Assembly: GCA_018971195.1 (NCBI GenBank) | Contig: JAGXBK010000010.1 | Span: 1-38,771, forward strand | DNA: 38,771 bases | Source of the DNA: Betaproteobacteria bacterium | Lineage (GTDB): Bacteria > Pseudomonadota > Gammaproteobacteria > Burkholderiales > Casimicrobiaceae | Direction of reading: 5' to 3' | Shown here: positions 11,869 through 14,013 of the stretch, one piece after another | How the letters are laid out: every line of letters starts with the position of its first letter | How positions within the stretch are numbered: the stretch's first letter is position 1 | The notes under the pieces: model-generated | What the model was told of the DNA's origin: nothing | Database searches by the model: none | What the model saw: the letters and a program-made list of their open reading frames with translations, nothing else | Program-made: the position numbers and the translations under genes

Positions 11869-12528
11869 TCAGAATGCGAACCGCTCGGGAGTCATGGCGT
11901 TCTCCAGCGGCGCGACGACGGTCTCGAACAGATCGACGGTGACATGCGAGTCTGGCGCGTTCCAGCGAATCAGGCGCGCCGTCATCGCCGGTGCCTCACC
12001 CACGACCGCGAACACCCGGCCGCCCGGCAGGAGCTGCTCGAGGAAACGCCCGGGAAGGATCGGTGTCGAGCCGGTCAGAACGATCACGTCGTAGGTGTCG
12101 CTCCCGTAGCCGCGGCTGCCGTCGCCGACCTCGACCCGGGTATTGGAATGGCCCATGCGCCCGAGCCTGGCGCGCGCGTCGGCAGCGAGCGCCGGATCGA
12201 TTTCGACGCTGGTCACCTGGGCGGCCATGCTCGCCAGCAGTGCGCAGAAATAGCCGCTGCCGGTGCCAATTTCGAGAACGCGATCGGACTCGGAGGGCGC
12301 AAGCTCCTGCAGCACCCGCGCCTCCATTTTCGGTGTCCACATCCGCGCGCGGCCGGACAATGGCAACTCGAGGTCGGCGAACGCGAGCGCGCGATACGCG
12401 GGCGGCACGAAATCCTCGCGCTTGACCTTGAACAGGAGATCGAGCACGCGCGGATCGAGCACCTCCCACGGTCGAATCTGCTGCTCGATCATGTTGTAGC
12501 GTGCCTGCTCGTAGTCGAATGCCTTCAT
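11869..12528 (-). CDS. pcm: Protein-L-isoaspartate O-methyltransferase family protein
   Basis: MKAFDYEQARYNMIEQQIRPWEVLDPRVLDLLFKVKREDFVPPAYRALAFADLELPL...VLEIGTGSGYFCALLASMAAQVTSVEID; SAM-binding motif EIGTGSGY. Confidence 0.88.
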   Translation of the reverse strand: MKAFDYEQARYNMIEQQIRPWEVLDPRVLDLLFKVKREDFVPPAYRALAFADLELPLSGRARMWTPKMEARVLQELAPSESDRVLEIGTGSGYFCALLASMAAQVTSVEIDPALAADARARLGRMGHSNTRVEVGDGSRGYGSDTYDVIVLTGSTPILPGRFLEQLLPGGRVFAVVGEAPAMTARLIRWNAPDSHVTVDLFETVVAPLENAMTPERFAF

Positions 12529-12644: not shown

Positions 12645-12850
12645 GCGATTAATTGGGGTCAGAGCTGTAATAAGCCGGTGCGTAAATGGGGTCAGAGCTG
12701 CGTAAATGGGGTCAGAGCTGTAATAAACCGCGGACGAGAGCGGTCGTGCATGCGCATCGGAATTCGGTTTATTACAGCTCTGACCCCATTTACGCAGCTC
12801 TGACCCCATTTACGCACCGGCTTATTACAGCTCTGACCCCAATTAATCGC
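12645..12850. repeat. Palindromic repeat element: perfect 86-bp inverted repeat (12645-12730 and 12765-12850) with a 34-bp spacer; six GGGGTCAGAGCTG copies
   Basis: The two arms compare base for base as exact reverse complements. Motif copies at 12655-12667, 12688-12700 and 12708-12720, and inverted at 12775-12787, 12795-12807 and 12828-12840. Confidence 0.93.
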
Positions 12851-12852
12851 AA

Positions 12853-14013
12853 TCAATCGAGTGTGCGCCGGTAACGAAGCAGCGCGATCGCCGCGACGGC
12901 GACCAGGAATGCGGCAAGCGGCCAGAGGTGCGGGGCGATCTGCCGAGCGTCGTTTCCCTTGAGCAGCACGCCGCGAACGATCCGCAGGAAATGGGTCAGG
13001 GGGAACACCTCGCCCAGCCATTGCGCCCATCCGGGCATCCCCCGGAACGGAAACATGAAACCCGACAGCAGCATCGACGGGAGGAAGAAGAAGAACGTCA
13101 TCTGCATCGCCTGCAGCTGGTTGGTGGCGACCGTCGAGATCGCGAATCCCAGGGCCAGCAGCGCGGCAATATAGAGCATCATGGCGGCGAACAGCAAAGG
13201 CAGGCTGCCGATCATTGGAACGTCGAACAGGACCTTGGCCGCGGCCATGATGATGACGGCCTGGACCAATCCGACTGCGATGTAAGGCACGATCTTCGCG
13301 GCCATCACCTCCAGCGGGCGGGCGGGTGTCGCGAGGAGACTCTCGAAAGTCCCGCGCTCGCGCTCGCGGGTCACGGCAAACGCCGTCATCATCACCATCG
13401 TCATCTGCAGGATCACGCCGAGCAGCCCGGGAACGATGTTGTACTGCGTCACCCCTTCGGCGTTGTAGCGGCGCTGGATGTCGACGGCGAATGGCGCCGC
13501 CGTCTGCGCCAGCCGTGCGAGCGGCCCGGTCAGGTCATGCGCGAGCGCGCCGGCCCCGGCCTGCGACACCGCGGCGATCGCGTTGCTGGCGGCGGACGGG
13601 TCGGTCGCATCAGCGGCGAGCAGCAGCGAAGGCTGCTCGCCACGCAGCAAGGCCCTCGAGAATCCGGCCGGGATGACGATCGCGAACTGGACGTCGCCCC
13701 GGTCGAGCATCCGGTCGGCGTCGGACTCGGAGCCCGGTGTCCGGTCGATCGCGAAATAGCCGGTGTTGCGCAGGCCCTGCACGATGCTGCGCGTGAATTC
13801 GCTGTGGTCGTAGTCGACGACCGCGGTCGGAAGTGACTTCGGGTCGGTGTTGATCGCGTACCCGAACAGCACGACCTGCAGGATCGGAACGCCGACGATC
13901 ATCGCGAACGTCAGCCGGTCGCGCCGCATCTGCACGAATTCCTTGAGCGCGATCGCCCACGCGCGGGCGAGCGAGAACCCGGCTGTCCGCGTGCCCCCGG
14001 CGTCAGGCGACAT
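12853..14013 (-). CDS. ABC-2 type transporter permease (YbhS/YbhR/YhhJ-like)
   Basis: FSLARAWAIALKEFVQMRRDRLTFAMIVGVPILQVVLFGYAINTDPKSLPTAVVDYD...RERERGTFESLLATPARPLEVMAAKIVPY...FMFPFRGMPGWAQWLGEVFPLTHFLRIVRGVLLKG. Confidence 0.93.
   Translation of the reverse strand: MSPDAGGTRTAGFSLARAWAIALKEFVQMRRDRLTFAMIVGVPILQVVLFGYAINTDPKSLPTAVVDYDHSEFTRSIVQGLRNTGYFAIDRTPGSESDADRMLDRGDVQFAIVIPAGFSRALLRGEQPSLLLAADATDPSAASNAIAAVSQAGAGALAHDLTGPLARLAQTAAPFAVDIQRRYNAEGVTQYNIVPGLLGVILQMTMVMMTAFAVTRERERGTFESLLATPARPLEVMAAKIVPYIAVGLVQAVIIMAAAKVLFDVPMIGSLPLLFAAMMLYIAALLALGFAISTVATNQLQAMQMTFFFFLPSMLLSGFMFPFRGMPGWAQWLGEVFPLTHFLRIVRGVLLKGNDARQIAPHLWPLAAFLVAVAAIALLRYRRTLD

Follow-up and report, generated by a model that had tools for sequence, protein, structure and literature searches.

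A palindrome with exactly matching arms lies between two genes in the stretch of DNA analysed here (the window; 38,771 nucleotides, contig C15 of a 3.17-Mb assembly of 288 contigs). This raises the question of what kind of element the palindrome is and how its two arms came to match.

Structure of the palindrome

The left arm (positions 12645-12730, plus strand) and the right arm (12765-12850, minus strand) are exact reverse complements over 86 of 86 nt and enclose a 34-nt loop (12731-12764), whose sequence was unique to the locus in a loop search. Each arm holds three copies of the box GGGGTCAGAGCTG. By pattern search these were placed at 12655-12667 (box 1), 12688-12700 (box 2) and 12708-12720 (box 3) on the plus strand, and at 12775-12787 (box 3′), 12795-12807 (box 2′) and 12828-12840 (box 1′) on the minus strand. 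In both arms the second and third boxes represent a direct duplication in tandem of the 20-mer GCGTAAATGGGGTCAGAGCT, with copies at 12680 and 12700 in the left arm (12680-12719, plus strand) and mirrored copies at 12776 and 12796 in the right arm (12776-12815, minus strand). The initial annotation, made from the letters alone, had described a perfect 86-bp inverted repeat with six boxes and the linkers TAATAA and GTAAAT, and this description was reproduced in full, both linkers being present in the arms.

The 9-mer GGGGTCAGA was found six times in the window, always inside the palindrome, against an expectation of 0.26. Folding of the region as single-stranded DNA gave -120 kcal/mol versus -29 for shuffled sequences (z = -26.6). 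The element is intergenic, between a PCMT (protein-L-isoaspartate O-methyltransferase) gene (11869-12528, minus strand; Pfam PF01135, E 1.7e-31) and a gene for an ABC-2 type permease (12853-14013, minus strand; Pfam PF12698, E 6e-57), and its right arm ends 2 nt beyond the stop codon of the latter.

Distribution of the box

Copy numbers were determined by pattern searches plus individual loci. The genome (3.17 Mb) contains 129 exact copies of GGGGTCAGAGCTG and none of the reversed control, so that the element, whose copy number the initial annotation had left to be counted, belongs to a multi-copy family. Among 60 relatives searched, boxes were found in G017 (24), G019 (8), the sister species G016 (6) and G004 (2), all of the same genus; beyond these four, one isolated match was obtained, in a genome of another genus. 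Inverted doublets with a hairpin are dispersed in the genome, the extragenic position being established for the window element. As counted from coordinates, a contig end is no more than about 500 bp away at 33 of the 44 box loci examined; the palindromes thus interrupt the assembly, and one locus is often represented by two contig ends.

Tandem-plus-inverted arrays of GGGGTCAGA were detected in 11 of 274 genomes of the class, with most matches in the genome studied here, followed by G180 and G273. The arrays of the latter two carry different extensions of the 9-mer, GTCGAATTT and CCCGCGTGGATAACTCG. A search of paper texts for GGGGTCAGA returned unrelated primers among the best 20 of 187 matches.

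A candidate transposase and a second repeat family

Two Y1_Tnp genes are present in the genome, on contigs C219 and C9. The C219 gene, encoding a Y1 (HUH) transposase, carries the GGGGTCAGAGCTG box in inverted orientation on both sides, and is thus the kind of box-flanked transposase gene for which the initial annotation had suggested looking. Its product P0001 matched Pfam Y1_Tnp (E 2e-11) and reached 75.8 bits against NCBIfam NF047646 (REP-associated tyrosine transposase), just below the cut-off of 80. An HUH stretch, NHVHLLLTP, and a tyrosine stretch, YIDLNPVRAGL, can be read in the protein. A Pfam HTH match was absent even at E 10, although general profiles may miss a C-terminal HTH extension of the kind that marks subclass 2.1 of the TnpA-REP proteins, and no sequence relative was found in the PDB at E 0.001.

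Within the genus, close homologues of P0001 (62-65%) were found in G017 and G019 only, the next most box-rich genomes. Two distant homologues (46-47%) were without the GGGGTCAGAGCTG box in a search of related loci. Variants of the box, among them GGGGTCAGAGTCGA, GGGGTCAGACTCGA and GGGGTCAGAGCCGT, flank several further RAYT-like genes of the genus; several have their own inverted ends of the GGGGTCAGA type, and some genes lack such a motif. G016 has boxes, and no RAYT was detected in its assembly; this is weak evidence for absence, since palindrome-flanked genes are easily lost from such assemblies.

The second RAYT-like Y1 gene (C9:3801-4861, L058) is flanked by boxes of another sequence, GGGACGYACCACG, of which the genome has 63 copies and G016 has 59, with no more than two in any of the other 20 genus members. 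On C33, C170 and C187 (L218, L219 and L220) this family, too, forms mirrored arms of two boxes each, with linkers specific to the locus; the G016 copies read have one box against two. Mirrored ends of two boxes each also enclose the C9 gene itself (identical at 41 of 45 positions) and a gene in G009 (49 of 51). Two intergenic sites are occupied by the GGGGTCAG family here (C187/C77 and C199/C162) and by the GGGACGYACCACG family in G016 (L118 and L121).

Comparison with the sister species

Around the window site G016 is about 94-95% identical, and both flanks could be aligned. A segment of 207 nt (12645-12851) stands here against 2 nt (TG) in G016, which settles the question of an empty site in a close relative that the initial annotation had put forward. 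Boxes were also absent from the site in the other genus members read. Because of the empty site in G016 the window element is a recent gain, acquired after the split from that species. The element on C133 likewise has a clean empty site in G016. At neither the window site nor C133 was a target-site duplication seen, the hallmark by which a classical DDE-transposase MITE would be recognized.

Other elements occupy sites common to both genomes (C41, C75, C189 and C255). The C189 site lies between atpG and atpD (gene names by sequence reading) and holds a degenerate doublet in G016 versus mirrored 2+2 boxes here. Among the genus members alignable at this site, the GGGGTCAGAGCTG box occurs in the present genome and G016 only; two other members carry doublets of a related motif there. 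For polarising the C41 locus five more distant relatives were tried, none of which aligned across the element.

Mirrored, locus-specific arrays

Where both flanks of an element had been validated, its perfect arms measured 86 nt (C15), 85 nt (C133), 79 nt (C171), 61 nt (C20), 57 nt (C68), 45 nt (C189) and 35 nt (C118, which is loopless). Perfect arms of the relatives' elements were mostly 17-34 nt, and 7 nt in the degenerate G016 copy between atpG and atpD; the sister-species copies mostly have one box per arm. The initial annotation had concluded from the arm identity that the element was recently formed or homogenised. This agrees with what was found, the arrays being mirrored, particular to their locus and, at a number of shared loci, more extensive than in G016.

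Linker sequences differ completely from locus to locus. Within a locus, 18 of 22 left-arm linkers had an exact partner in the opposite arm, and none of 264 comparisons across different loci gave a match. Among the ten loci contained in a single assembled piece the count was 9 of 13, which omits elements joined from two contig ends; three contig-end pairs enter the larger count only. Palindromes continuing into mirrored flanking DNA, a fold-back artefact, were found on C45, C75, C126, C174, C177 and C187 and on C237 of G016; the first six, contig-end palindromes folding back into their own flank, were omitted from the symmetry figures.

Mirroring was imperfect on C41, C217, C141a and C255. The C41 element has three boxes versus one here, and one and one in G016; on C141a and C217 the arms differ in box number and by point changes. 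The C68 element is asymmetric as well, with two boxes versus four and with tandem units. On C189 and C255 the outermost pair consists of older degenerate boxes common to G016, with perfect new pairs inside, and the C189 loop is still recognisable despite the growth of the array.

The window loop (12731-12764) had no source in its own genome, G016 or G005. As no donor with this loop was found in the genome, the window element does not seem to have been copied from any element now present. Capture of host DNA as the origin of loops in general was considered and rejected, since searches of these three genomes returned the elements themselves and related elements, with one weak match in G016 (E 0.006) as the sole exception. 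Elements whose loop is missing or only 1 nt long were seen on C118 (L035), in G017 (L107) and at L227 and L228; such perfect uninterrupted palindromes are an unusual DNA structure to keep. The elements on C40 (L022) and C177 (L052) form the only pair found in the genome that has nearly the same loop at apparently different loci, and are possibly a recent copy of one element. Loops appear to be oppositely oriented in C275 (L221) versus C82 of G016 (L229), in C45 (L025) versus its G016 counterpart (L135), and in C40 versus C177. Loop inversion is not claimed as proof of template switching, because each pair includes a fold-back contig, which leaves loop orientation ambiguous.

Origin of the mirrored arms

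Taken together, the observations probably describe a non-autonomous miniature element of the TIRYT type, with a box corresponding to the end of the C219 gene, that was gained after the split from G016 and whose arms were mirrored on site. The second family with the same mirrored arms is part of the evidence. On the other side, no transposition or template switch was directly observed, and the assembly is fragmented. The basic unit is probably an inverted box doublet around a loop of 25-40 nt. To judge from relatives and from HUH biochemistry, the doublet would fold, when single-stranded, into a hairpin that could be cut by the transposase. Box units may then be duplicated in tandem in one arm by slippage, after which hairpin template switching during replication would rewrite the opposite arm and yield perfectly mirrored, locus-specific arrays. 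The coexistence of one-sided and two-sided states suggests this order, in which one arm first gains tandem units and the opposite arm is then copied from it.

Mirroring could instead arise during transposition, if the 3′ end of the hairpin primed copying of the opposite arm in a rolling-hairpin-like manner, so that a fresh copy would be a perfect palindrome. Several elements missing from G016 do have long perfect arms (C15, C20, C133 and C171), and the two-box mirrored ends on C9 and in G009 span whole RAYT genes of about 0.7-1 kb, a distance that is far for template switching at a fork and so favours this route. On the other hand, C189 and C255 kept their place and loop yet gained mirrored boxes, for which a jump is unnecessary, and asymmetric elements (C68 and C127a) are among those missing from G016. 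We consider this origin rather unlikely; that fold-back copying is part of the HUH transposition cycle, each jump remaking the perfect palindrome and being able to lengthen it, is likewise unlikely. Nested insertion, in which a new doublet enters the apex of an older hairpin and produces a mirrored series of boxes, would account for the older degenerate boxes forming the outermost pair on C189 and C255, and an insertion at the tip of the loopless C118 element would look mirrored. It requires an exactly central insertion every time, whereas the C189 loop was retained through growth and the tandem 20-mers of the window are more simply explained by slippage, which makes such nesting distinctly unlikely.

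The remaining explanations deny a mobile origin or the palindrome itself, and the initial annotation had named a finding for each that would count against its proposal: a single-copy RNA conserved in distant relatives, or a palindrome created by assembly. Fold-back into the flank is indeed visible at several contig ends, so that contigs folding back at hairpins, or two unlike arms merged by the assembler, had to be considered. Against this, the window element is bordered by two unlike flanks, each of them syntenic with G016, as are those on C20, C133, C171 and C189, and asymmetric elements assemble asymmetrically; an artefact is therefore very improbable. A structured RNA (attenuator, terminator or mRNA 3′ end), its arms kept complementary by selection through compensatory changes, would fit the very stable hairpin directly 3′ of a stop codon. 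We regard it as extremely improbable, given that no Rfam match was obtained at gathering score, that the element is missing at this site in relatives and that linkers are wholly different between loci. miRNA-like Rfam matches below gathering score were discarded, as any perfect hairpin would give such matches.

Relation to known repeat systems

Among published systems, the family stands nearest to the TIRtrons or TIRYTs (RAYT group 1). In the available text of their description, TIRYTs have GGGGWSAS terminal repeats, which are scattered singly, as dimers or in groups (Di Nocera et al. 2013, PMC3733652). As in that text, a Y1/HUH transposase lies here between inverted repeats, GGGGTCAG fitting the motif, and the repeats recur in paired and grouped form at other places in the genome (PMC3733652). 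TIRYTs probably correspond to subclass 2.1 of the TnpA-REP proteins, judging from the part of PMC6006769 available. Those parts of the published description mention neither locus-specific arrays of several boxes in mirrored arms nor a growth of such arrays compared with a sister species; both may be new relative to published TIRYTs, an earlier description being possible.

The initial annotation had proposed a REP/MITE-like, non-autonomous element. Its non-autonomous, mobile nature is borne out by the multiple copies, the cognate Y1 gene and the empty site, but the class is to be amended to terminal inverted repeats of the TIRYT type rather than GTAG REPs, GGGGTCAGAGCTG being non-palindromic and without a GTAG or GGAG tag. 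REPINs mobilised by RAYTs, as far as they are covered by the accessible part of PMC3116915, are the closest functional analogue by comparison of features: they share the inverted doublet, spacer, hairpin, extragenic position and a copy number tied to the transposase, but differ in that the box here is not palindromic and lacks the GTAG tag, each arm has several direct boxes and loops are unique to a locus. BIMEs similarly cluster transposase-end repeats in both orientations; they alternate in orientation, whereas here the boxes within an arm all share one direction and are mirrored in the opposite arm. Template switching homogenises inverted repeats according to the consulted portions of PMC8604942 and PMC8794818. 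The quasipalindrome correction and template-switch mutation they treat similarly rewrite one arm from the other, but are known there mainly as small changes, whereas here whole added repeat units are found in both arms.

The palindromic elements explain much of the fragmentation of the assembly, and palindromes at contig ends can be artefacts. RAYT/TIRYT repeats are seldom caught moving, so how they spread is still an open question. One genome and its close sister here supply insertions of recent date, empty sites, loci common to both at which the arms are larger, and a candidate transposase that is intact. In the locus-specific mirror arrays, arm-to-arm copying seems to have left a natural record, which makes both TIRYT transposition and inverted-repeat template switching testable.
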